From Bryobacterales bacterium (lineage in GTDB: Bacteria > Acidobacteriota > Terriglobia > Bryobacterales > Bryobacteraceae), in NCBI GenBank assembly GCA_003164075.1, contig PLRZ01000218.1, positions 1 to 11,127 of the forward strand: a stretch of DNA of 11,127 nucleotides, in the 5' to 3' direction. Positions 1-11,127 of this stretch are shown here, piece by piece. The notes under the pieces were generated by a model. The model worked only from the letters and a program-made list of their open reading frames with translations, made no database searches and was not told where the DNA came from. The first letter of the stretch is position 1; each line of letters starts with the position of its first letter. A program made the position numbers and the translations under genes.

Positions 1-546
1 CCCTACATGGACCGTGACCGGCACGGAAAGCCGGTAAGCGGCGGCCAGTATGCTTTGGGCGACGTGCGGAAAGGGAGAGTCCAGGAGCCGCCGGCCGGCG
101 TTTTCGCCCAGGCCCAACTGCAAATCCGCGGCCTCCGAAATCCAGTCGTTCAATTCGCCCGTCTCGCGCCACAAGCCGAAGCAGCCGGACCGTACATAGC
201 GGGCCACGCTCTCGGTCGTGGCGCCAATCCTCGCCAGTTCGTAATCGTGGATGAGTCCGGCGCCATTCATCGCCACGTGGTTGATGAAACCGCGCTCCAT
301 GAGGTCGATCAGAATGCGATTGACCCCGGCGCGGATCACATGGCCCCCCATCATGAAAATACGCGCGGCCTGGGCGTCGCGCGCCGATCTCACACGGTCT
401 GCCAGCACCGCCAGGCCGGGAAGGGAACAAGGGACCGGAGCATCGTCCGGGTTCAGCCAGTTGTCCAGATGGAGATCGTGAGTGCGTTCCGCAAGGGGCC
501 GCAGGAGCAGGCGGCTACGGTCGAATACAGTGTATTTGCTTTTCAT
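1..546 (-). CDS. Deoxyhypusine-synthase-like protein, N-terminal 182 residues (gene continues past window edge)
   Basis: The ATG at 546-544 overlaps the TGA of the upstream HAD gene (ATGA), so translational coupling is likely. The frame is open to base 1, and the C-terminus, including the position of the catalytic lysine in true deoxyhypusine synthases, lies outside the window. Residues about 65-110 contain MMGGHVIRAGVNRILIDLME, then HVAMNGAGLIHDYELARIG. This has the layout of the NAD-binding part of the deoxyhypusine synthase fold: a glycine-rich SN/GH-x-I-x-x-G-x-R motif, a hydrophobic strand, then an AGG/GAG-x-x-x-D-x-E loop. The visible part ends with PVTVHVG. Bacteria lack eIF5A, and bacterial members of this family are generally thought to act on other substrates (homospermidine-synthase-like or unknown). 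I assign the family from motif memory only and no function. It is probably cytoplasmic, with no signal peptide. Confidence 0.55.
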   Translation of the reverse strand, partial: MKSKYTVFDRSRLLLRPLAERTHDLHLDNWLNPDDAPVPCSLPGLAVLADRVRSARDAQAARIFMMGGHVIRAGVNRILIDLMERGFINHVAMNGAGLIHDYELARIGATTESVARYVRSGCFGLWRETGELNDWISEAADLQLGLGENAGRRLLDSPFPHVAQSILAAAYRLSVPVTVHVG

Positions 547-1358
547 GCGCGAGATTCCGAAACAATCGACAACAGGAGCGGTTGACAGAGAAAATTGGGC
601 AAGATGTAATCGGCGCCGGCGAGGGTCAGACGCCGTTGCTTCCAGGCGTCGATCTCGATGCATTCCGGTTCGAACGTGGCAATCCCCACCGCCACTCCGC
701 CAGCCTTCTTTACTTCCTCTATCTCCACAAAACCATCGCCGAAGCCTATGAGTTTGGCCGGTGCGCGTTCCGACGAGGCCAGTATCCGCCGCACCAGCAA
801 GGCCTTTGAAAAACTATAATCGTCCCGGGCGCCGAAGATCGAGTCGCCAAAAAAGCCGTCAATCCGAAGCAAACGGGCTTCTTCGAGCACGTCGGCATGG
901 TCCGTACCACTGGCCAGATAGAGCCGCAATTCCTGCTTTTGGAGCGCTTCGAGAAACGCGCGCGCTCCGGGAACCAACAGCGCATCCGGATCGATCGTTC
1001 CTCGCCGGAGGCCCTCCACGCGATCCGCAATGGCGTGCCTTAAGCGGCGCAGGTACTCGCTCTTGTAGGTCAGCGGCGGAAGCGGCTCTCCACCCCTCGC
1101 CAGAACCTGCTGGTGGAGTTCCTCCATTTGATAAATAGTGTCTTTGCCGGTCAGTTGAAAGACCTTTTCCCGCACCGCGGACCGGACCTGCTCGATGTCC
1201 TCGCCAGTGCCGCATTCGAACAGGACCTCTACCATCATCGGAATCATGATGGACTGCCATCCCGTCCGGATCAACGACAGAGTCCCGTCGAAATCAAAGA
1301 GGGCGACTCGGGACGCGGGCCCGATGAGCGGCGATTGCGGCAAACTCGCTTCACTCAT
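543..1358 (-). CDS. HAD-superfamily hydrolase (phosphatase-like, C1 cap), 271 aa
   Basis: All four HAD motifs are visible. Motif I is LFDFDGTLS, with nucleophile D22 and acid/base D24. Motif II is LASGTD (S150). Motif III is FSKALLV (K185). Motif IV is GFGDGFVEIEE (D208, then acidic E212/E214). About 120 mostly helical residues between motifs I and II form a C1-type cap, as in phosphoglycolate or sugar-phosphate phosphatases, so phosphate-ester hydrolysis in the cytoplasm is likely; the substrate is unknown. I chose the ATG at 1358 rather than the TTG at 1364: GGTGA sits 9 nt upstream of the ATG, and the ATG overlaps the stop of the preceding broken ORF (ATGA). The gene's own stop overlaps the start of the deoxyhypusine-synthase-like gene, again by ATGA, so the two form a tight pair and may act on one substrate or pathway. 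Confidence 0.88.
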   Translation of the reverse strand: MSEASLPQSPLIGPASRVALFDFDGTLSLIRTGWQSIMIPMMVEVLFECGTGEDIEQVRSAVREKVFQLTGKDTIYQMEELHQQVLARGGEPLPPLTYKSEYLRRLRHAIADRVEGLRRGTIDPDALLVPGARAFLEALQKQELRLYLASGTDHADVLEEARLLRIDGFFGDSIFGARDDYSFSKALLVRRILASSERAPAKLIGFGDGFVEIEEVKKAGGVAVGIATFEPECIEIDAWKQRRLTLAGADYILPNFLCQPLLLSIVSESRA

Positions 1359-1614
1359 GCGCAATAATCACCCGGTGACCACGTTGCCCCAATCTTCGCC
1401 GCAACCAATGCAAGCCGGTTCTTCGCGAAGCCGCACACAGCGACGATGGCGCGATCCGGCTCGGGGCGTCACAATAGAGATGCCGTGCGTGCCCGCGCCG
1501 ATCGCCGATGCTTGTAATCTCTTGGGGGCGCCCGAGGACGCTCTCTGCGAGGCCGCCATCATGCCGGCGGAAGTTCGCAAAAACTGCTGTCCGCTTTCCT
1601 ATTGCGATTCTCAT
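1355..1614 (-). pseudogene. Remnant of a Tat-exported Gfo/Idh/MocA-type oxidoreductase (N-terminal fragment, frameshifted)
   Basis: Reading minus from about 1598, one frame gives QQFLRTSAGMMAAS, a Tat-type leader, followed by RLQASAIGAGTHGIS, which resembles the first strand and GxGxxG dinucleotide loop of Gfo/Idh/MocA oxidoreductases. About 1 nt of shift near 1470 moves into another frame reading PDRAIVAVCGFAKNRLALVA up to a TGA at 1357-1355. This matches the second strand of that Rossmann fold (xVxAVCDxxxxRLAxxA). The ATG at 1614 is one base out of frame with the leader, and the leader frame has a TAG at 1601-1599. Only about 85 of an expected 350-450 residues remain, and the fragment runs directly into the HAD start (ATGA overlap). 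It is therefore a broken gene. The family call rests on motif resemblance alone. Confidence 0.6.
1528..1586 (-). repeat. Diverged direct repeat, copy B (Tat-leader coding segment)
   Basis: On the minus strand this segment runs from CAGTTTTTGCGAACTTCCG to GAGCGTCCTCGGGCGCC. It aligns with 6558-6502, which runs from CAGTTCTTGCGAACTTCCG to GGAGCGTCCTCGGGGCC. Both encode QFLRTS followed by an alanine/methionine-rich segment. TTGCGAACTTCCG is identical in both copies. The similarity extends upstream as an equal spacing to the shared operator. Confidence 0.75.
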
Positions 1615-1655
1615 TTTTCAGAGGCTTCTTTCCTGCCATCCTCACGCTTCACAAT

Positions 1656-1669
1656 ACTGACATGTCAGT
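1656..1669. promoter_or_regulatory. Perfect 14-bp palindrome, operator-like, copy B
   Basis: ACTGACATGTCAGT is a perfect inverted repeat. On the minus strand it lies 3 nt downstream of a -10-like TATTCT (1678-1673), where a repressor would cover the transcription start. The same half-sites in the same position follow the fucosidase promoter (6640-6627). No -35 box is found 16-18 nt upstream of TATTCT: the sequence there belongs to the broken SDR gene. This promoter has therefore probably lost its -35, although the operator may still bind protein. Confidence 0.6.
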
Positions 1670-1755
1670 TACAGAATAGGCGAGATCCACAATCCACGGC
1701 TCGCTCCCGTAACGACGGCAATTCTTCCCGACAGGTCGAATAGGTTGTCATCCAT
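1669..1755 (-). pseudogene. Truncated short-chain dehydrogenase/reductase (SDR), first 22 codons
   Basis: The ATG at 1755-1753 follows the Zn-ADH stop by 9 nt and is preceded by AGGTGATGGAG, a good ribosome-binding site that overlaps that stop. The product reads FDLSGRIAVVTGASRGL, which is the classical SDR start: first beta strand plus the TGxxxGxG cofactor loop, cut before its last glycine. It then diverges into WISPIL and a TAA at 1671-1669. The remaining roughly 230 residues, including the YxxxK site, are missing. The intact gene would have been the last gene of the fucosidase operon. SDRs often oxidise L-fucose or 2-keto-3-deoxy-L-fuconate in oxidative fucose pathways, but the fragment is too short to assign a substrate. 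It is the clearest evidence for a deletion or mis-join at about 1689/1690. Confidence 0.8.
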
Positions 1756-1764
1756 CTCCATCAC

Positions 1765-2796
1765 CTACGGCTGTAAAATCACTTTCATCAGATTTGGCTC
1801 TCGATTAAACAAGCGGTCGAACCAGACCTGCCCCTCGTCCAGAGGCGCAGTTACACTGATTAGGCGGTCGACGCGAATGGCCTTGCGCGCAACGAGATCA
1901 ATGCAGACCGGGTATTCGCCCGCCGAGGCGCACGATCCCATGATGCGGATTTGTCGCGTCACGACCGACTGCAGCGGAAGCTCTATTTTCGGCGAATAAT
2001 TGCCGACCAGCGTCAGAGCGCCGCCCTTGCGAAGGCTGGCCACCGCGGACTGCACGGTCTCCGTGGTCCCGACGGCCTCGAGTGCGACGTCGGCGCCTCG
2101 ACCGGAGGCGTACGTCCGCACCTCGGCCGGGACGTCGCAGGCGGCGGCGTTCAGGCAGAGGTCCGCGCCATACTCTGCGGCGAGTTTCAGCCTTGCTTCG
2201 TTCAGATCGACCGCGACGATTCGGCTGCAGCCGGCCAACCGGAGCGCTTGAATCGCCAACAAGCCGATCATCCCCGCGCCGACCACGACGGCGGTGTCAC
2301 CCAGTCTAACGGGCGTCAATTGAACCGCATGGACCGCCACGGAGACGGCTTCGATCATCGCCGCCTGCTCAAACGTGAGTGCGTCGGGAAGCGCATAGAC
2401 GATGCGTTCCGGAACGGCTACGAACTCCGCAAATGCGCCGTTCCGCCGATACTCACCCGCCGAGACGCCGAGGACCTGGCGATCGTCACAAAGGTTGACG
2501 TCCCCGCGTTGGCAGAAATAACATTCTCCGCAGTAGACGGTGGAATCGAACGTGACGCGATCTCCAACCCGGACACGCTTTACGCTGTCGCCGGTCTTGA
2601 CCACGACTCCGGCAGCTTCATGCCCCATAACGAGTGGAGGAATCCGCCGTCCGGTGCTCCCGTCGTACCCGTGAACGTCGCTTCCGCAGATACCGCAAGC
2701 CTTGACGCGCACCAGCACGTCGTCAGGCCCGACCGCCGGTTCCGGCATGTCGGCGATCTCAAATAGTTTATATTCCTTCAGTAAGAGTGTTCGCAT
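1765..2796 (-). CDS. Zinc-dependent medium-chain alcohol/polyol dehydrogenase (MDR family)
   Basis: The 343 residues are full length for the zinc MDR family. The catalytic zinc ligands are C37 (CGICGSD), H59 and E60 (MGHEAAG). The structural zinc lobe has C89, C92, C95 and C103 (YCGECYFCQRGDVNLC). The cofactor domain has GAGMIG at 173-178 and an acidic D197 ending the second strand (VAVDLN), which favours NAD over NADP. Closest known groups by pattern are sorbitol, L-threonine and galactitol-1-phosphate dehydrogenases; the substrate cannot be read from sequence. The gene lies 51 nt downstream of the MFS gene and just ahead of the broken SDR, so cytoplasmic oxidation of the imported sugar or a derivative is likely. 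No strong Shine-Dalgarno is seen before the ATG at 2796. The stop is TAG. Confidence 0.9.
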   Translation of the reverse strand: MRTLLLKEYKLFEIADMPEPAVGPDDVLVRVKACGICGSDVHGYDGSTGRRIPPLVMGHEAAGVVVKTGDSVKRVRVGDRVTFDSTVYCGECYFCQRGDVNLCDDRQVLGVSAGEYRRNGAFAEFVAVPERIVYALPDALTFEQAAMIEAVSVAVHAVQLTPVRLGDTAVVVGAGMIGLLAIQALRLAGCSRIVAVDLNEARLKLAAEYGADLCLNAAACDVPAEVRTYASGRGADVALEAVGTTETVQSAVASLRKGGALTLVGNYSPKIELPLQSVVTRQIRIMGSCASAGEYPVCIDLVARKAIRVDRLISVTAPLDEGQVWFDRLFNREPNLMKVILQP

Positions 2797-2847
2797 AATA
2801 GTTGACAGTCTGAACTAAGCTTGAATCTCTGTTAACGGCGGCCCAAG

Positions 2848-4053
2848 TTACCCCGCTTGTCCTTCCTTGACGTCAGGCAGGAACCAGATGATGCCCGCCG
2901 CAATTAACGGCAGAATCCCGAATCCAACAAATACCGGCACGTAGGAGTAATGGTCCACAACCCAACCCGTCACCAAACTGAACACCATTCCACCGAAGCC
3001 CGCACCCATGCTCGCAATGCCCCAAACTGAACCCACTGTGTTCTTAGGGAACCTGTCAGCCGGCATTGCCAGCATATTGGAAAGCGCTCCTGTGTATCCG
3101 AGGGTCGCGGTGGAGATCAGCGCAATGGAGATAAACACGTTTGACACAAGCACCGCCGGAATCGATGAGGCCATTAACGCCGCGAACACCATCACCGATA
3201 CCTTGCGCGCCCAAATCACGGGAACTCCACGGTTCAGCAAGGCGGCGGCAAAGGCGCCTCCAATCAGATTGCCCGCATCAGCCGTGAGGAACGGAATCCA
3301 GGCGAACTTACCAATCGATGCAATGTCGAATCCGCGGGCGCTTTTCAGGTATTGTGGAAACCAAAAAATATAAAAGTACCAAGCCGGGTCGCTGAAGATT
3401 TTGGAGACCGTAAACGTGCAGACCCAGCGCATCCGGAGAAGCTTCCAAATTGGGATGGGCGGATCGGCGACCTCTGTGCTGGTATTTCCTGGAGTATAGT
3501 AGACCAACAGCCAAACCAACAGCCATATCAGACCGATCCCGCCAACCACCAGGAACGCACTTCGCCATCCCGACCGAAAAATGACCCAGGCCACGAGCGG
3601 CGGCGCAGCGACGGCCCCAATGGAAGATCCGCTGTTGAAAATACCCGACGCGAGTGCGCGCTCCTTCGGAGGAAACCACTCGGCAACGACTTTGACGCCG
3701 GCTGGCCAGTTACCCGCCTCGCCCATGCCCAACAGGAAACGATATACACCGAGACTGAATACCCCGTGAGCCAATGAATGCAGCATGGTGGCAATACTCC
3801 ACCAGGCCATGCAGACGGCATAGCCGAGCTTTGTGCCAAGTCGATCTACCATCGGACCGGAGACCCCGTTCATGACGGTGTATGCCAGCATAAAAGCAAA
3901 GACTACGCGTGAGTAGTCCACATTGCTCATGTGAAACTGCTCGGTAATAACGGGAGCTACTACCGAAAGAGTCTGACGGTTCAAATAGTTTATGACTGTG
4001 GCGAGGAAGACCAGACTGATCATGACCCATCGACGTTTGGAGGCTGTGGTCAT
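2848..4053 (-). CDS. MFS transporter, ACS (anion:cation symporter) type, 401 aa
   Basis: About 12 hydrophobic segments span the protein. The N-terminus RRWVMISLVFLATVINYLNR, followed by QTLSVVAP, is typical of the hexuronate/galactonate branch (ExuT, GudP, DgoT). The loop motif DRLGTKLG (70-77) and the signature GEAGNWPAG (111-119), then EWFPPKERA, also match that branch. These proteins import sugar acids or related anions with protons across the inner membrane. I chose the ATG at 4053: it is preceded by GGAG at 9 nt and starts at the conserved N-terminus. A GTG at 4125 would add 24 unconserved residues and has no good ribosome site. The neighbours (GH29, GntR, Zn-ADH) suggest a sugar or sugar acid from the GH29 product, but the substrate is inferred. 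Confidence 0.9.
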   Translation of the reverse strand: MTTASKRRWVMISLVFLATVINYLNRQTLSVVAPVITEQFHMSNVDYSRVVFAFMLAYTVMNGVSGPMVDRLGTKLGYAVCMAWWSIATMLHSLAHGVFSLGVYRFLLGMGEAGNWPAGVKVVAEWFPPKERALASGIFNSGSSIGAVAAPPLVAWVIFRSGWRSAFLVVGGIGLIWLLVWLLVYYTPGNTSTEVADPPIPIWKLLRMRWVCTFTVSKIFSDPAWYFYIFWFPQYLKSARGFDIASIGKFAWIPFLTADAGNLIGGAFAAALLNRGVPVIWARKVSVMVFAALMASSIPAVLVSNVFISIALISTATLGYTGALSNMLAMPADRFPKNTVGSVWGIASMGAGFGGMVFSLVTGWVVDHYSYVPVFVGFGILPLIAAGIIWFLPDVKEGQAG

Positions 4054-4133
4054 GAGGGTATTCTCCGTCCGTAGGCTGGCGTCAGTTGTTCTAGACACGA
4101 TTAAGATCCCCTGAATGAGGTCCACAGGGAGTG

Positions 4134-4886
4134 CTACTTACCTGCGACTGCGTCACGAACGCCGCCTTCGCGATGCACCCGCCACCCATTCTCAGTGTCG
4201 GATGGACGCAGGACATCCAGCACACTCTCCAATCCGTACCGGATGTGGGTGCGCATGGCCCTATCGGCAGCTTCGATGGAGCACCCAGTCAGAACCGCTG
4301 CCAGTTCGGAGTGGAAATGTGGCGGAAGACTGCGTTGGTGCGCGGCCGTGTCAAACAGCCAATTAAAAACCAGGACCTGTTGGCGCTCGATGGCATCGCG
4401 CAATAACATGCTCCCACCGATTTCCGCGATACGCAGGTGGAACCTCATGTGATAGGTATGGACCGAATACAAGAACTCCTCGTCTGCCCCCTCACTGGAA
4501 GCATAGAGCTGATCCAACTGATTGCCGATTTTCCGGATCTCCGCCCTGCCGCCATCGTCAACCTTCTCGACGCACAATCGCCCCGCTTGTGTTTCGAGGG
4601 CCTCCCGCAGACCGTACCGCTCGATGATGTCCTCCCGTGTCGGTACACGGACCCGGCTACCAACCCGGGGTTTGCTCTCCACCAGCCCATCTAACTCAAG
4701 GTGCTGGAGCGCTTCGGAAATCGGCAAAAAACTCATGCGGAGTTCCTTGGCGAGGTGTCGTCTCGAAAGAGCGGCGCCAAGAGGATACTGGCCGCGCAGG
4801 ATTTTGTCGCGAATCAACTGGTAAGCCCGTTCCGATAAGCTCTCGGGCGAACGAATTCGTGCGCTACTGAGGCGATGTTCGGGCAT
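4134..4886 (-). CDS. GntR-family transcriptional regulator, FadR subfamily (FCD domain), 250 aa
   Basis: An N-terminal winged helix-turn-helix spans about residues 13-82 (ESLSERAYQLIRDKILRGQY, then LAKELRMSFLPISEALQHLE). It is followed by an all-helical FCD ligand domain at about 86-226. Candidate metal/ligand residues include H150 (FHLRIAEIGGS), H190/H192 (PPHFHSEL) and H214 (MRTHI). FCD regulators usually sense small carboxylates such as sugar acids and mostly act as repressors. I chose the ATG at 4886, which has GGAG 9 nt upstream and lies 17 nt after the fucosidase stop. A GTG at 4949 would overlap the fucosidase gene and adds unconserved residues. It is the only regulator in the window and so the natural candidate to bind the ACTGnCATGnCAGT sites (inference). 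Confidence 0.92.
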   Translation of the reverse strand: MPEHRLSSARIRSPESLSERAYQLIRDKILRGQYPLGAALSRRHLAKELRMSFLPISEALQHLELDGLVESKPRVGSRVRVPTREDIIERYGLREALETQAGRLCVEKVDDGGRAEIRKIGNQLDQLYASSEGADEEFLYSVHTYHMRFHLRIAEIGGSMLLRDAIERQQVLVFNWLFDTAAHQRSLPPHFHSELAAVLTGCSIEAADRAMRTHIRYGLESVLDVLRPSDTENGWRVHREGGVRDAVAGK

Positions 4887-4903
4887 AACCTGCGGCTCCG
4901 CCT

Positions 4904-6427
4904 TCAAACGGTCTCCGTGCGAATTTGGAAGCCCCAGGCAAATCGACACGGACGCCCCGATTCATCCTGCATCCCGGGAGGAATCTGCACTTCCAGGCCG
5001 GCGCTGGACACGCTCCATTGCAGAGGTACGCTCGTTCCGAGCATCTGAATGACCGACCCTTTGGCCGGCTGCACCGAACGGAGGAGTAGTTTCTCGCCGG
5101 GCCATTTCGTTACAAAGGCATAGACTGTCCGGTTGTCTTTGGTTCGGGTGAACCGGATATCGGCGCCTTCGGACCAAAGGTCCCCGTCGCGGCCGCGGGT
5201 GGAATAAATGCCCTCGCCATTGACCTTTAACCATTCGCCGACTTCCTTCAACTGGCTGACCGCCGTGGAATGAAATCGACCGTCGCCGTCGGGGCCAACC
5301 GCCACCATGAAGTTACCCCCCTTCGCGACCGAATCTACCAGGTTCCGCACGATCCAAAGGGCTCCTTTGTAATTCGCCGCCTCTGCCTCATACGAGAAGG
5401 ATCTGCCGAGTGGATAAATGACGAACCAGGGCGTATCCGTATTGCTCTGATCGCCCGGCACAAACCCCTCAGGAGTGTAGTAATCGCCATAATTACCGAT
5501 GCCGCGAGCTCGATACATCACGTCAGGCCGCAGTTTTCGCAGATAGAGAATGGTCTCACGAAGCTGGGGCCACACTTTCGGGCCCAGGTACATATCAAAG
5601 TCAAGCATGTCGACGGCGCCATAGTGAGTCAACAGTTCGGTCAATTGGGCGCGATGGCGGGCCATCATACGGCTGACTTCAGCCGGGCCGGCATCCGGGA
5701 CAATCACGATGTTGTCACCGAGCCTCTTCTTCGTACCCTGATAATCGGTGGTCAAGACCTCCGAGGAAGGCACCTGTAGAGGATGGGCGGCATAGGGGCG
5801 AAAGTCTGCGTCGTACCAGTCGGAATGCGAAAAATAGAGGTTAATCTTGATATTCCGTTTGTGGGCAGCCCCGCAGAGTTCCTTCACCACATCGCGGCGG
5901 AACGGGGACTCCATGATACTGTAAGCAAGGTTGCAGTCCTCGATCTTCGGGCCGCCGGGAGCCATCCAGTTCGCACGGCTGCGGACTCGGGTACGCGTGT
6001 CGAACATGGAAAAGCCCTCGTGATGTTTCGTAGTAAAAGCGAACATCTTCATACCGCAAGCGGCGAACAGATCCATCCACTCATCAGCGTTGAAACCGCG
6101 CGGATTCCATGTTTTGTACATCGATTGATAGCGCTGCCGGTCCGCAAGAGACATTTGCAGGAACGGCCAGGACTCATTCGGCTGGCCGAGAATGGAGTAG
6201 AGTCCCCAGTGCAATCGCACTCCGTACTTAATGTCGCGGAAGCGTTCGTACGCTGCGTCGGAGGCCCAGCGGTACTCCGGGACGGGAATGTCCTCAACGT
6301 ACGACCGCGTGTTTCGATAATGAGTATCGCGCGCGGGAAGACGATGATTCACGCGGTCGGCGGCGCGCGATGATGGCAGCGCCGCAGCCGCGGCTAAGCC
6401 GGTTGTAAGGAACGATCGACGATTCAT
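4904..6427 (-). CDS. Exported GH29 alpha-L-fucosidase-like glycoside hydrolase, 507 aa
   Basis: The Tat leader is MNRRSFLTTGLAAAAALPSS, with probable cleavage near SRA/AD at about 22. GH29 landmarks follow in order: YGVRLHWGLYS (H73), FTTKHHEGF (H135, H136), LYFSHSDWYD (197-206), a strand MLDFDMYLGP whose D278 aligns with the catalytic nucleophile of the usual LWFDG, and VAKGGNFMVAVGPDGDG with VNGEGIYSTR near the C-terminal end of the barrel. A short beta domain finishes the protein. The family hydrolyses alpha-L-fucosides with retention; here it would act in the periplasm or at the cell surface. W276 and G279 of the usual motif are replaced by D and M, so specificity may differ. I chose the ATG at 6427 because GAGGG lies 4 nt upstream and it begins the twin-arginine leader. 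It is the first intact gene of the operon. Confidence 0.88.
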   Translation of the reverse strand: MNRRSFLTTGLAAAAALPSSRAADRVNHRLPARDTHYRNTRSYVEDIPVPEYRWASDAAYERFRDIKYGVRLHWGLYSILGQPNESWPFLQMSLADRQRYQSMYKTWNPRGFNADEWMDLFAACGMKMFAFTTKHHEGFSMFDTRTRVRSRANWMAPGGPKIEDCNLAYSIMESPFRRDVVKELCGAAHKRNIKINLYFSHSDWYDADFRPYAAHPLQVPSSEVLTTDYQGTKKRLGDNIVIVPDAGPAEVSRMMARHRAQLTELLTHYGAVDMLDFDMYLGPKVWPQLRETILYLRKLRPDVMYRARGIGNYGDYYTPEGFVPGDQSNTDTPWFVIYPLGRSFSYEAEAANYKGALWIVRNLVDSVAKGGNFMVAVGPDGDGRFHSTAVSQLKEVGEWLKVNGEGIYSTRGRDGDLWSEGADIRFTRTKDNRTVYAFVTKWPGEKLLLRSVQPAKGSVIQMLGTSVPLQWSVSSAGLEVQIPPGMQDESGRPCRFAWGFQIRTETV

Positions 6428-6477
6428 AATACCCTCAGAAACGCGTTCGAGCAGATTCGACAAACATTTCCATGGCG

Positions 6478-6493
6478 CCGCCGCAGCCGGCGG
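6478..6493. repeat. GC-rich inverted repeat at the edge of the broken leader ORF
   Basis: CCGCCG-CAGC-CGGCGG forms a perfect 6-bp stem with a 4-nt loop. It sits where the Tat-leader similarity ends and the out-of-frame tail begins. Such a hairpin could mark a deletion end point or hinder ribosomes between the leader ORF and the fucosidase start. No T tract follows on the minus strand, so it is not a terminator. Confidence 0.5.
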
Positions 6494-6501
6494 ACCCGTG
6501 C

Positions 6502-6558
6502 GGCCCCGAGGACGCTCCTGGAAGCAGCCATCGCGGCTACGGAAGTTCGCAAGAACTG
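6502..6558 (-). repeat. Diverged direct repeat, copy A (Tat-leader coding segment)
   Basis: This is the partner of 1586-1528, with the same leader residues QFLRTS and an identical TTGCGAACTTCCG core. On the minus strand the CAGTTC start lies 68 nt after the operator at 6640-6627, against 69 nt in copy B. Confidence 0.75.
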
Positions 6559-6626
6559 ACCTCTGTTTCCATCCCTGCTCCTGTCCATACAGGACTCCTT
6601 ACGTTTGTGTAAACAATCGGCCAAAG

Positions 6627-6640
6627 ACTGCCATGACAGT
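6627..6640. promoter_or_regulatory. Operator-like inverted repeat over the fucosidase transcription start, copy A
   Basis: ACTGCCATGACAGT is palindromic except for one base pair, and matches copy B (ACTGACATGTCAGT) at all other positions, giving the shared form ACTGnCATGnCAGT. It begins 2 nt after the -10 box on the minus strand, so a bound protein would block initiation. The GntR/FCD protein encoded in the operon is the likely ligand (inference). Confidence 0.6.
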
Positions 6641-6642
6641 TG

Positions 6643-6671
6643 AGTATACGGCGGCGCTGGTCGAGTGTCAA
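6643..6671 (-). promoter_or_regulatory. Sigma70-type promoter of the fucosidase operon
   Basis: On the minus strand there is TTGACA (6671-6666), a 17-nt spacer and TATACT (6648-6643), which is close to full consensus. Predicted initiation is near 6636, inside the operator-like repeat, giving a leader of about 48 nt to the AAGGAG-preceded ATG at 6588. Such a strong core promoter makes sense if it is held down by a repressor. Confidence 0.82.
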
Positions 6672-6735: not shown

Positions 6736-6771
6736 CCGCAGGCTGCTTGCGGCCGGCCGCCCGCAGGCTGC
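6736..6771. repeat. Short direct repeat flanking a palindrome in the divergent intergenic region
   Basis: CCGCAGGCTGC occurs at 6736-6746 and 6761-6771. Between them lies GCGGCCGGCCGC (6749-6760), a perfect 12-bp palindrome. The stretch 6672-6875 separates the two divergent promoters, and I see no coding signal in it beyond GC-rich shadow frames. The repeats could be protein-binding sites, but GC-rich DNA produces such patterns by chance. Confidence 0.4.
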
Positions 6772-6851
6772 GACCGCCAGTGCGCGCGCCGCCCGACAAC
6801 GAAATCAATCAGCCTTCCGGGGAGCAAGCGGGGGGCGACGGATGGGGCGTC

Positions 6852-6875: not shown

Positions 6876-6904
6876 TTGACATTGAAATTGGCCGGCTGTA
6901 CTAT
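6876..6904 (+). promoter_or_regulatory. Sigma70-type promoter of the TonB-dependent receptor
   Basis: TTGACA (6876-6881), a 17-nt spacer and TACTAT (6899-6904) give a near-consensus promoter on the plus strand. Predicted initiation is at about 6910-6912, leaving a leader of about 160 nt before the ATG at 7073. It diverges from the fucosidase promoter about 205 bp away. Confidence 0.78.
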
Positions 6905-6910
6905 CCCAAG

Positions 6911-6920
6911 TGATATATCA
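6911..6920. promoter_or_regulatory. AT-rich 10-bp palindrome at the receptor transcription start
   Basis: TGATATATCA is a perfect palindrome beginning 6 nt after the -10 box, placed like the operators of the fucosidase side but with a different sequence. It stands out as AT-rich in a GC-rich region. It may be a repressor site, but its short length makes chance possible. Confidence 0.35.
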
Positions 6921-7022
6921 GAAGTCGGGGTCTGAAGCTCCTGGTTGACAGGGCGCGGACCTGGAAGGCAGTGCCGTTTCTTGCAAACCTCCGCGATGCG
7001 CGGCGTGACATCGGCGTGGCAT

Positions 7023-7060: not shown

Positions 7061-7067
7061 AAGGAGG
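7061..7067 (+). promoter_or_regulatory. Consensus ribosome-binding site that fixes the receptor start
   Basis: AAGGAGG lies 5 nt before the ATG at 7073. It decides the start over the in-frame GTG at 6971, which has no such site and would add 34 low-complexity residues. Confidence 0.9.
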
Positions 7068-7072
7068 TTCCG

Positions 7073-10000
7073 ATGTATTTCTTAGACGATTTGCAGACGT
7101 GTGGGTCCGTTTGGAGTGCGCACAGAAGGGGAGCCGCCGGGTCGAGCTGGATTTCCAATCTGTTATGCTGTTTGCGGCCAGCCGCTCCGGTCGTTTTACT
7201 GGCTATGGCTTTACTGGCGATTCCGTCGCGCATGGCATATGCGCAGAGCACTGCCGGGTTGATCTCCGGGACGGTCACCGATCCCCAAAGCGCTGCAGTG
7301 CCGGAGGCTTCGGTTATCGCGCTCAACCAGGACCAGAAGACAACCGTGCACACGAATACGGATATGGCGGGGCAATTTGTGTTCCCGAATCTTCTGCCCG
7401 GCCGGTACACCATCACCGTCGGGGCGAAGAACTTTAAGACGCTGAGAAAAGTGGATGTGGTTTTGAACGCCAACGCCACAGTCGCGCTTGGGGGCCTCCA
7501 ACTCCAGGTCGGAACCCAGGTGGAGACGGTGGAGGTGGTCGCCCAGGGGCAGGAGGTGCAGACCGACACCGCCCAGCAAGGAGACACCCTGATCGGTACC
7601 CAGATTGAACATATCGAGGTGAATGGGCAATCCCCGCTGGCCTTGCTGAACCTCTTGCCTGGAGTTTATGAGACTGGTTCGGGGGTGGGCGCGGCCAACA
7701 TCAACGGGAATCGCTTCGATTCCGCGCACGTCATGCTCAACGGAGCCACCAATATGGATACTGGTTATGACAATGGTTGGATGGCTCAGGTCAGCCTGGA
7801 CGCCGTGCAGGAAGTGACCGTCCTGACCAGCAACTACCAGGCACAGTACGGCCGGTCCGCCGGCGCGCAGATCAACATTGTGACCAAAAACGGTGCATCG
7901 CAGTTTCACGGAACCGGCTTCGAGTACTTCCGCGATAAGGGCATGAACGCCAATACCTGGACTAACGACCGTGTGGGTACGCCCAAAGCCGCCTACCATT
8001 ACAACGACGCCGGCTTCAATATTGGAGGCCCAATTTATTGGCCGCACAAATTCAACACGGCCCGGAATAAGTTGTTCTTCTTTTGGGACGAATTGTGGGA
8101 GCACCATACGACGGCGACGGTCAACGACGTAACCATGCCCACGCAGGCGGAGCGGACCGGCGACTTTTCGAGCTCCGTGGATCAGAGCGGAAAAGCGGTG
8201 GTCATCATGGATGCTTCTTCGGGGGCGCCATTCCCCAACAACCAGATTCCGGCAAGCCGGTTATACAAGCCGGGCATCGCATTGCTCAATCTGCTTCCGC
8301 TGCCGAATGCAGTCGGCCCAGGCCATCCCACTTACAACTACATTTCCCAGGGCGCTACAGCGAACCCTCACCGTGAAGACGTTGTGAGGTTGGATTACGA
8401 TGTCACCTCCAAGTGGCGCGTGTATGGAAGCTTCTCGCATTCGCAGACCGTCACTGTTGGTCCGTACGGCACGTACGGCGGGTCGGCCAATTTCCCCCTC
8501 TATAACTTCGGACTTCCGATTCACGCCCAAAACTTTACACTGAACGCCACGCAAATCATCAGCCCGACTGCCGTAAACGAGATCCAGTTCGACCAGAGCT
8601 ACGACTACCAACATACCGGACCGGTGATCGGATCGAACGGCTGGACATCCACAGCATCCGGCGTGACGTTGCCCACGCTGTACCCGGCGTACCAAGACCT
8701 GCTTCCCGGATTCACGTTTAACGGCACGCGAATCGCCAACAGCCCGACGTATTCGAGCAGCCAGGAGCCGTTTATCAACCATGACAAGGTCACCGAGGTC
8801 TTCGATAATTTGAGCATCACGCGGCACGCCCACACGCTGAAATTCGGGGTGTCCTATGGGCACAACTTTAAAGTCCAACCCTCCGGCGCGAATTATCCCG
8901 GGACCTATAACTTCGGCGACAGTTCCGTCAACCCTCTGGATACCGGCTTCGGCTTCGCCAACGCGGCGCTTGGCGTTTTCAGCTCATTCACCCAAGCCTC
9001 CCAATACGCGCAGGGCGACCCGGACTATAATCAGTTCGAAGTCTATGCCCAGGATACCTGGAGAGCGACGAGTCGCCTGACGCTGGACTATGGCATTCGG
9101 TTTTACTATATGGGCCCGGTTTACGACGGCACCGGTGTTCTGCCGAACTTCTTTCCCCAATCGTGGAGCGCGGCGCAGGAGCCTCGCCTCTTGTATCCGG
9201 CGTTCAACGCAGGCGGCACTCGCATCGCGGTCGATACTGTTACCGGCCAGACGTATCCATCCAATTTCATCGGAGCCTATGCGCCCGGCACGGGCAATAT
9301 TCAGAACGGCATGATGGTTCTGGGTCAGAACGGCGTCGACCGAGGCGTTACCCGGAACCCCGGCTCTCTTCCGATGCCGCGCATCGGCTTTGCTTACGAC
9401 CTCACCGGCCGGCACACGCTCGTGCTTCGCGGCGGAGGGGGCATCTTTTACAACCGGACGATGACCGACCCCTATTCGTATCTACTGGCCGACCCGCCGG
9501 TGACGATTCAGCCGACGGTATTGAACGGACAAGCATCCACCCTGGCCTCCAGCGGGGCCGTACTGAATCCCCCGACGCTGTCCACGTTCAGCAACAGCCC
9601 CAAAGTCCCCGTGACATACAACTACAGCCTGGGCATCGAAGACAAATTGCCGTCCAGCCTCTTGCTGGGCGTATTCTACGTCGGTTCCGTCGCAAACCAT
9701 CTGCTCGACACGTTGAATCTCAATCCGGTGCCGTTCGGCGCCGCGTTTCTACCGCAGAACCAGGACCCGACGCTTCAGAAGGCTTCGCCGAATGCTCTGG
9801 CCGGTTCCAACGCCTTGCTGTCCCAGTTCATGAGACCGTACGTCGGCTTCAACGATATCACCGAATACCTGTTCGTGGGCAACTCGAACTATAACTCGCT
9901 ACAGGTATCTCTCAATCGGCGGTTCGCTAGCGGCCTGATGCTGGGCGTCGCTTACACCAGGAGCAGGTGCATGGATACCAACGACAGTTTCGCCGCAATC

Positions 10001-10672
10001 CGCTTCGATCAGTACACCCACATGGCCGAATACGGTCCCTGCGGTTACGATATTCCGAATAATTTCGTGGCGAATTACGTTTATACTCTCCCTAAATTCG
10101 CTTCCTGGCTGGGGGTTGGGAAGAACGGGGTGGCAAAGGAAGTCCTTAATGACTGGCAGATCTCCGGCCAAACGACGTTTCAATCGGGCACGCCTTTTAG
10201 TCCGAGTTTCAGCGTGTCGGGAGCTTCCGGGGTCAACTTTACGGGTACCCCGAGTTGGGGCGCGATTCCGCTGTGCGTCGGCAATCCCATGGCCGGCACG
10301 AGCGACAGCCCCTACGCCCGGCTGAATTCCTCCGCGTTTGCCCTTCCCGCGGTGGGTAGTATCGGCCTTGGGTGTTCCCGCGACATTCTGCGAGGGCCCG
10401 GAGTAAACGACTGGGATATGTCCTTGCAGAAGACGGTGCCGTTCGGGGAGAAAGTCCGGTTAACGCTTCGTGGAGAAGCCTTCAACGTCTTCAATCACAC
10501 GCAATTCAGCGGTATCAACCATAGTTTGACTTACTCCAGCATCACCGGCACCGTGCCCACGAACCTGCCGTACAACTCCGGCGGTGCGCTCACCAACATC
10601 AACGGATTCGGCACGGTCAGCGGCGTACGCGCTGCGCGGGTGATACAACTGGTCGCAAAGTTCGTATTCTGA
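7073..10672 (+). CDS. Oar-type TonB-dependent outer-membrane receptor with carboxypeptidase-regulatory domain, 1199 aa
   Basis: An extended N-region leads to a hydrophobic stretch (VVLLAMALLAIPSRMAYA), with predicted signal-peptidase cleavage after A57. Residues about 61-157 (GLISGTVTDPQSAAVPEASV ... FVFPNLLPGRYTITV) form a carboxypeptidase-regulatory-like beta domain. Residues about 160-275 form the plug (LLNLLPGVYE, NINGNRFDSAHVMLNG, YGRSAGAQINIVTKNG). A long beta barrel follows and ends in LVAKFVF, a terminal aromatic residue as in outer-membrane barrels. The KLFFFWDEL stretch is typical of the large Acidobacteriota family annotated as TonB-dependent or Oar-like receptors. Such proteins import bulky ligands, often oligosaccharides, using TonB energy; the ligand here is unknown. 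Divergence from the GH29 operon suggests a related glycan (inference). No TonB box was securely identified. Confidence 0.93.
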   Translation: MYFLDDLQTCGSVWSAHRRGAAGSSWISNLLCCLRPAAPVVLLAMALLAIPSRMAYAQSTAGLISGTVTDPQSAAVPEASVIALNQDQKTTVHTNTDMAGQFVFPNLLPGRYTITVGAKNFKTLRKVDVVLNANATVALGGLQLQVGTQVETVEVVAQGQEVQTDTAQQGDTLIGTQIEHIEVNGQSPLALLNLLPGVYETGSGVGAANINGNRFDSAHVMLNGATNMDTGYDNGWMAQVSLDAVQEVTVLTSNYQAQYGRSAGAQINIVTKNGASQFHGTGFEYFRDKGMNANTWTNDRVGTPKAAYHYNDAGFNIGGPIYWPHKFNTARNKLFFFWDELWEHHTTATVNDVTMPTQAERTGDFSSSVDQSGKAVVIMDASSGAPFPNNQIPASRLYKPGIALLNLLPLPNAVGPGHPTYNYISQGATANPHREDVVRLDYDVTSKWRVYGSFSHSQTVTVGPYGTYGGSANFPLYNFGLPIHAQNFTLNATQIISPTAVNEIQFDQSYDYQHTGPVIGSNGWTSTASGVTLPTLYPAYQDLLPGFTFNGTRIANSPTYSSSQEPFINHDKVTEVFDNLSITRHAHTLKFGVSYGHNFKVQPSGANYPGTYNFGDSSVNPLDTGFGFANAALGVFSSFTQASQYAQGDPDYNQFEVYAQDTWRATSRLTLDYGIRFYYMGPVYDGTGVLPNFFPQSWSAAQEPRLLYPAFNAGGTRIAVDTVTGQTYPSNFIGAYAPGTGNIQNGMMVLGQNGVDRGVTRNPGSLPMPRIGFAYDLTGRHTLVLRGGGGIFYNRTMTDPYSYLLADPPVTIQPTVLNGQASTLASSGAVLNPPTLSTFSNSPKVPVTYNYSLGIEDKLPSSLLLGVFYVGSVANHLLDTLNLNPVPFGAAFLPQNQDPTLQKASPNALAGSNALLSQFMRPYVGFNDITEYLFVGNSNYNSLQVSLNRRFASGLMLGVAYTRSRCMDTNDSFAAIRFDQYTHMAEYGPCGYDIPNNFVANYVYTLPKFASWLGVGKNGVAKEVLNDWQISGQTTFQSGTPFSPSFSVSGASGVNFTGTPSWGAIPLCVGNPMAGTSDSPYARLNSSAFALPAVGSIGLGCSRDILRGPGVNDWDMSLQKTVPFGEKVRLTLRGEAFNVFNHTQFSGINHSLTYSSITGTVPTNLPYNSGGALTNINGFGTVSGVRAARVIQLVAKFVF

Positions 10673-10703: not shown

Positions 10704-10723
10704 TGGGAACGGAGATCATGAAC

Positions 10724-11127
10724 ATGGATAGAAGGCAATTTATTGGAAGGTCGACGGCGGCGCTCGGTTCCATCGCTTCGCTGGGAGCCGCCGGGCAGGA
10801 TCCCGCGCAAGGGCCGGCGGCGGCCCGAAAAGGCGAAGCGAGTTCGGCACTCGGCCGGCCGGTTCGGGCAGTCAGCATCAGCTTTTCACGAGGCCTCTCG
10901 GTGGAACAGATCGCCGGCCTGGTGGACAAAGAGGGGGCGCGCGGGACGGACATTATCGCACTGCCCGAAGGCGCCGGACGCGATTTGGACGGCGCTCTCA
11001 TGGTGGCTGTAGGTGGCTTGGCCGCTAAACATCGAACCTACGTCGTCTGTCCCATCAGCCGGGCGGACGGTGACGGGCGTCTCAACTCCGCGGTTTTGCT
11101 CGACCGACGCGGCCAGATCCTTGGCAT
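10724..11127 (+). CDS. Exported nitrilase-superfamily (carbon-nitrogen hydrolase) protein, N-terminal 134 codons
   Basis: The frame is open to the window end, so the gene is cut by the edge. The start MDRRQFIGRSTAALGS is a Tat-type leader. After a low-complexity linker (about 25-45) comes RAVSISFSRGLSVEQIAGLV, then DIIALPE, whose E82 matches the first catalytic residue of the nitrilase Glu-Lys-Cys triad, and YVVCPISRADGDGRLNSAVL with LDRRGQILG, the strand preceding the catalytic lysine. The lysine and cysteine lie beyond the window. I chose the ATG at 10724 because GGAG is 9 nt upstream; the ATG at 10718 is only 3 nt from it. The family hydrolyses amides or nitriles; the substrate is unknown. 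The 51-nt gap suggests cotranscription with the receptor. Confidence 0.82.
   Translation, partial: MDRRQFIGRSTAALGSIASLGAAGQDPAQGPAAARKGEASSALGRPVRAVSISFSRGLSVEQIAGLVDKEGARGTDIIALPEGAGRDLDGALMVAVGGLAAKHRTYVVCPISRADGDGRLNSAVLLDRRGQILG

Follow-up and report, generated by a model that had tools for sequence, protein, structure and literature searches.

A predicted operator of an FCD-type GntR regulator, with gene remnants beside it, at a fucosidase locus of a Bryobacterales bacterium

The minus strand of an 11,127-nt stretch of DNA from a Bryobacterales bacterium (contig PLRZ01000218.1; hereafter the window) carries two segments in which a -10 box, an inverted repeat and the coding sequence of a Tat-type export leader follow one another in the same order, and a gene for a GntR-type regulator lies between them. 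What do the repeats do, and what are the leader segments behind them? A first-pass annotation of the window had proposed that an operator and an exported oxidoreductase were duplicated here, and that the two sites form a regulon within one locus. Judging from sequence comparison with related loci, the two repeats (ACTGnCATGnCAGT) very probably serve as operators for the FCD-class GntR regulator encoded between them. We further think it likely that the locus is a local regulon under this proposed repressor, in which O3 and O1, the sites at the two leader copies, are operators left after gene loss.

Predicted operators in the window and in its relatives

Exact ACTGNCATGNCAGT occurs in the window at 1656-1669 and 6627-6640 only, with no further place even at two mismatches; since 9 of 200 shuffles also gave two matches at up to two mismatches, that scan alone is not strong. 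A matrix was built on 22 of 26 sites upstream of gntR in relatives, none of them from the window; the 26 had been collected with a pattern widened from the motif of the first-pass annotation. It places three sites scoring at least 13 in the window; 200 dinucleotide shuffles of the window held 0.06 such sites on average and never more than 1. The supposed two-site regulon thus has at least three sites, one of which had been overlooked. These sites, with their promoters and the main genes, are as follows.

6627..6640, minus strand: predicted operator O1, ACTGTCATGGCAGT; matrix score 13.3; 2 nt after the -10 of the GH29 promoter.
6909..6922, plus strand: predicted operator O2, AGTGATATATCAGA; matrix score 19.6; the overlooked site.
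1656..1669, minus strand: predicted operator O3, ACTGACATGTCAGT; matrix score 21.0; 3 nt after TATTCT (1678-1673).
6643..6671, minus strand: sigma70-type promoter TTGACA-N17-TATACT; 11 of 12 consensus bases; -10 TATACT at 6648-6643.
6876..6904, plus strand: sigma70-type promoter TTGACA-N17-TACTAT; 10 of 12 consensus bases; 4 nt before O2.
4904..6427, minus strand: GH29 alpha-L-fucosidase of 507 amino acids (aa) with a Tat-type leader; PF01120 (2.9e-59) and PF16757.
4134..4886, minus strand: GntR regulator of the FCD class and proposed repressor; its recognition helix reads MSFLPISEAL; start inferred by comparison with relatives of 250 aa (the longest open reading frame [ORF] begins at 4949).
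7073..10672, plus strand: CarboxypepD_reg/TonB-type outer-membrane beta-barrel protein with a Plug domain; start inferred from AAGGAGG at 7061 (the longest ORF begins at 6971).

We asked how widely the motif is shared by aligning the GntR protein with 43 relatives and scanning public genomes, which gave 62 loci. The expectation that the motif would recur upstream of related genes failed for exact ACTGNCATGNCAGT, found in none of the 62 loci, and held for the consensus ACTGATATATCAGT and its variants: at up to two mismatches a related palindrome recurs, mostly 60-160 nt upstream of the start of the gntR match. The consensus itself follows from an unseeded ranking, in which all 4096 12-bp palindromes were scored in the stretches of up to 450 nt that precede gntR in 60 of the 62 loci. 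CTGATA/TATCAG came out on top, present at up to one mismatch in 16 of 60 loci, where the next best palindrome reached 5 and matched control stretches 0; at up to two mismatches it stands upstream of gntR in 28 of 60 (control, 0). In the same 60 loci the density of the widened pattern in the 450 nt before gntR is about 11 times that in the rest of the sequence (26 occurrences in 26.8 kb, compared with 68 in 806 kb).

The link to gntR extends to whole genomes. Exact CTGATATATCAG occurs at 10 sites in 7 of 26 genomes, the reversed-pattern control giving none, and 9 of the 10 lie, by coordinates and sequence, on a contig with a gntR relative, as do both sites of genome G014. The remaining site (G252:C11:12563-12574, locus L151) was not traced to a gntR contig and has no match to locus L024. 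In support of an operator with a local regulon, sites scoring at least 13 in relatives adjoin genes for gntR, GH29, MFS transporters and TonB-type barrels, and in locus L111 also an exported Gfo/Idh gene. A site upstream of gntR recurs in metagenome-assembled genomes (MAGs) labelled Acidobacteria and Verrucomicrobia. Conversely, no site of at least 13 occurs in L112-L119, eight GH29 loci whose fetched stretches contain no gntR; L114 and L119 carry weaker sites of 10.5-10.9, and the genome of L117 has a gntR elsewhere.

Two further observations concern relatives of the regulator. The gntR ORF of G014 (L111, 6390-6956) is, as called, 188 aa long with partial identity to the window's GntR; this gene may be broken while its operators persist. 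A variant palindrome, ACTGGCATGCCACT, lies about 795 nt after the match start at L018 4794 and L023 1148, two gntR paralogs of one genome with SQLT helices, beside which it is perhaps a sister operator.

Promoter geometry also bears on the predicted operators. An operator just downstream of the -10 box is a standard means of blocking initiation, and O1 and O2 are so placed. The O2 promoter region aligns with the barrel-gene promoter in L111 and L144 (69% over 120 nt, E 2e-5). Across relatives, a near-consensus sigma70 promoter lies 0-10 nt upstream of 23 of 81 distinct sites scoring at least 14, compared with 16 of 3000 random positions, a control that includes coding DNA and to that extent tells against the contrast. 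Such a promoter precedes 12 of the 15 listed sites in G002 and G014, and neither of the two in G001. Between the window's two divergent promoters lies a nested GC-rich palindrome (6737-6772).

The two leader copies and their remnants

Around O3 (copy 1) and O1 (copy 2) the following short features were found.

1690..1761, minus strand: SDR gene remnant, first 24 codons only; 1.3e-11 against the SDR of locus L002; overlooked, like O2, in the first-pass annotation.
1358..1589, minus strand: remnant with a frameshift, probably from an exported Gfo/Idh-type gene; the leader's frame runs from 1589, and a Rossmann-like piece lies at 1468-1358 in a different frame.
6424..6588, minus strand: 54-aa leader ORF, AAGGAG 6 nt before the ATG; Tat-type leader block, then unrecognised sequence.

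The common order that first drew attention was borne out: the -10 boxes TATTCT and TATACT stand 3 and 2 nt before the palindromes of copies 1 and 2, and a leader block with TTGCGAACTTCCG follows beyond a linker of 68 or 69 nt. Pairwise alignment of the two segments is likewise far better than chance (score 58; reached by none of 500 shuffles; z 19.5), with the leader block alone carrying the score. The leader-coding blocks are homologous (scores 57-59, reached by none of 500 shuffles, z 15-19), being 79% identical over a 38-nt ungapped repeat, and they score 57 to each other, compared with best scores of 25 and 30 against up to 44 other Tat-like leaders in the fetched loci. No likeness was found in the linkers (z -0.2) or in the DNA upstream of the operators (z 0.1).

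Could the whole promoter-operator-leader cassette have been duplicated recently, with the enzyme bodies lost later? The same order, the near-equal distance from operator to leader and leader blocks far nearer each other than other Tat-like leaders speak for such an event, but a recent copy's non-coding DNA should also align. The unlike linkers and upstream DNA are better explained by older paralogous genes, each with its own operator, and we think a recent cassette duplication rather improbable. With homology confined to the leader-coding block, and no intact oxidoreductase in either copy, the original idea of a duplicated operator with its exported oxidoreductase is not supported as a cassette duplication.

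The statement that both copies run into Gfo/Idh-like fragments finds modest support, and for copy 1 alone. On a profile of seven exported Gfo/Idh-like N-termini, of which two are Pfam-confirmed Gfo/Idh and three apparently unrelated, copy 1 yields two colinear pieces in two frames with scores of 8.6 (1 of 1000 shuffles) and 8.4 (0 of 1000). Copy 2 is a leader only: 52 of 1000 shuffles score as high on the profile, and its best local match, the best among weak local BLAST matches for the leader pieces, is the leader of a Gfo/Idh protein in L016 (E 0.001). A 38-aa leader piece has no match in 237 family genomes, which shows nothing by itself, and a 37-aa piece has none in the PDB. Copy 1 is probably the frameshifted remnant of an exported Gfo/Idh-type gene, and the 54-aa ORF of copy 2 a probable remnant of an exported enzyme gene.

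Comparison with relatives suggests what has been lost around O3. The SDR start MEMDDNLFDLSGRIAVVTGASRGL upstream of O3 matches a full 266-aa SDR that follows the dehydrogenase in L002 (same genome as L143), in the same place; it ends 11 nt before the -10-like box TATTCT, from which no -35 lies at 16-18 nt spacing, because the upstream DNA of copy 1 is this SDR remnant. In L111, homologs of the window's HAD-type hydrolase and GSU2086-type protein come straight after the SDR ORF (as called, without its first ~35 residues), with no site of at least 10 between.

What appears to be an independent gene fossil behind an operator is found in genome G002 (L002, 14540-15000), where the order is promoter, operator, a Tat-leader-like remnant (13 residues, E 0.004), an SDR C-terminus (6.7e-23) and GH29. 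From these alignments, we read G002 and the window's copies as cases in which gene bodies were probably deleted behind persisting operators and GH29 captured the promoter.

How the regulator reads DNA, and alternative explanations

The window's GntR has a GntR winged helix-turn-helix followed by an FCD domain (PF00392, 5.5e-14, and PF07729, 2.9e-11, both above cutoff). It shares these two domains with the FadR (FCD) subfamily, and its predicted operator is likewise a palindrome close to promoters that in many cases precedes the gene for the regulator itself. According to PMC4494728, sites of the FadR subfamily are palindromes rich in A/T that commonly carry TKGT/ACMA boxes (BioR and NanR are among the exceptions), and an arginine of the recognition helix (FadR Arg-45) contacts G, possibly as a general GntR feature. 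By that description the consensus ACTGATATATCAGT differs, having no TKGT/ACMA boxes. Of 120 relatives in the window's GntR family, 100 could be parsed and 20 could not; at the residue matched by eye to Arg-45, 99 of the 100 have F and one has L, and more distant loci also show V, L, I or Q. The best PDB relative by profile, the FCD-type GntR 7xp0 (4.7e-19), has the helix SRGPLREA where the window's family has SFLPVSEA. BioR, whose site TTATMKATAA (PMC4494728) also has no GT/AC boxes, is an FCD-class GntR with another site sequence; we liken the two by site, not by protein sequence. An altered recognition helix and an altered operator would form a coherent, though unproved, pair. We found no description of the motif ACTGATATATCAGT or of such a regulator among the open-access papers that our searches listed; the string "acidobacteri" is absent from the main text of PMC4494728, and the passage concerned in PMC13050008 is an irrelevant primer.

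A number of observations weigh against a local GntR regulon with operators left after gene loss. No site of at least 13 lies within 600 nt upstream of the helix codon in 31 of 57 recognised gntR ORFs, and these site-less ORFs include both with SQLT, both with SIVP and five of six with SLLP helices. The window's own gntR has no adjacent site (best score -0.4), O1 is the weakest of the three by matrix, and L001 has no site directly upstream of GH29. Exact CTGATATATCAG is absent from 19 of 26 genomes. At one mismatch G001, G002 and G014 together hold 12 sites, of which 4 share a contig with gntR, and the reversed pattern gives 3, so loose matches are not specific; the wider pattern ACTGNYATRNCAGT gives 4 sites in 4 of 12 whole genomes, compared with 5 in 4 genomes for its reversed control, and genome-wide loose matches therefore say little. 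As to the remnants, Pfam found no match in copies 1 and 2, including the NAD-binding Rossmann family PF01408, a database search with the padded remnant returned 91 candidates with none at E<=10, and the Gfo/Idh identity depends on a small profile. Some of the site-less gntR ORFs may be internal to operons, like the window's own, and others may be helix variants reading other sites.

These site-less relatives, and the departure from the FadR-type GT/AC consensus described in PMC4494728, could also mean that the palindrome serves a different regulator, whose gene lies elsewhere and which happens to act on gntR clusters. We give this little credence: nearly all exact sites in the 26 genomes are on gntR contigs, the eight GH29 loci without gntR also have no site of at least 13, the placement upstream of gntR recurs in MAGs of both labels, and the altered recognition helix fits the altered operator.

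A further alternative is that the 54-aa ORF of copy 2 is no fossil at all, but a working leader peptide through which GH29 translation is coupled or attenuated. Its AAGGAG is well spaced, its frame is open, and its TGA overlaps the GH29 ATG (ATGA, 6427-6424), so translational coupling is possible. However, the first half of the encoded peptide is a Tat-type leader of the ordinary kind, and copy 1, which is frameshifted, is homologous to it; by eye, L111 and L014 have no Tat-leader ORF between operator and GH29, and L002 holds a different remnant there. A role as a functional leader peptide therefore seems quite unlikely. That the junctions are assembly chimeras of a metagenome contig, as two truncated genes within a short space might suggest, is very improbable, given the comparable fossil behind an operator upstream of GH29 in the separately assembled G002 and the HAD then GSU2086-type order conserved in L111.

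The proposed regulon and its physiology

Returning to a local regulon with operators that outlast genes, we infer the steps that follow, from GntR binding and repression to the ligand and the order of events; what the comparison itself shows is the motif of the operators and its association with gntR, the way the promoters are arranged at O1 and O2, and the gene remnants. A GntR dimer, made from the gene at 4886-4134, would bind 14-bp palindromes of consensus ACTGATATATCAGT. At the divergent promoters O1 (GH29) and O2 (barrel) begin 2-4 nt after the -10, so bound GntR would cover the transcription start and block RNA polymerase. GntR would be freed by a ligand that the sugar pathway supplies, possibly a deoxy-sugar acid, and uptake, fucose release and oxidation would be induced jointly. 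O3 would be a surviving, intact operator next to a decapitated promoter. Copies 1 and 2 would owe their likeness to being the first parts of related genes for exported enzymes (of Gfo/Idh type, best supported for copy 1), whose bodies would have been lost by deletion with the operator kept, the promoter of copy 2 being taken over by GH29.

The remaining genes of the window are listed below.

2848..4125, minus strand: MFS transporter; among NCBIfam models closest to the D-galactonate transporter, though short of that model's cutoff.
1765..2796, minus strand: Zn-dependent dehydrogenase.
543..1364, minus strand: HAD-type hydrolase; homolog in L111 (57%), directly after the SDR ORF there.
1-663, minus strand: truncated GSU2086-type protein; NCBIfam 195.9 bits, below the cutoff of 250; forms with the HAD-type gene a pair whose order is conserved in L111.
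10718..11125, plus strand: Tat-leader gene cut off by the window end; 52% identity to the ORF downstream of the barrel gene in L001; no Pfam match in the domain scan of window ORFs; perhaps nitrilase-like.

Named protein matches include Bryobacteraceae, and among the matches listed from 257 genomes of the order no closer GH29 relative exceeds 78%. Rfam and tRNA scans of the window found nothing. Relatives also encode a GH9 enzyme and a beta-helix protein that matches GH141 below the cutoff, and a verrucomicrobial locus has an L-rhamnonate-dehydratase-like enzyme, likewise below cutoff. Together with GH29 and the SDR and Zn dehydrogenases, these suggest release and oxidative breakdown of a deoxy sugar, and the inducer is likely a sugar acid.

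SusC/D-type TonB-linked polysaccharide utilisation loci combine a barrel, an exported glycosidase, an inner-membrane transporter and a local regulator, and the window clusters genes of the same four kinds, its glycosidase carrying an export leader. It differs in its CarboxypepD_reg/OMP_b-brl_4 barrel and FCD GntR regulator; no SusD family member was found among the window ORFs scanned, alongside the barrel with its Plug domain.

By a narrow balance we favor a broader view, in which a widespread and seemingly undescribed branch of FCD GntR repressors in Acidobacteriota and Verrucomicrobia has a recoded DNA reading (Arg replaced by F, V, L or others; operator ACTGATATATCAGT) and governs mainly local glycan-use regulons, whose operators stay in place as the genes they precede are exchanged or lost (promoter capture). 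The locus would thereby supply an operator and a regulon open to testing in a large, little-studied group of regulators from soil phyla, as well as a natural example of GntR DNA recognition whose code has changed. It would also illustrate how operators may outlive the genes they control.

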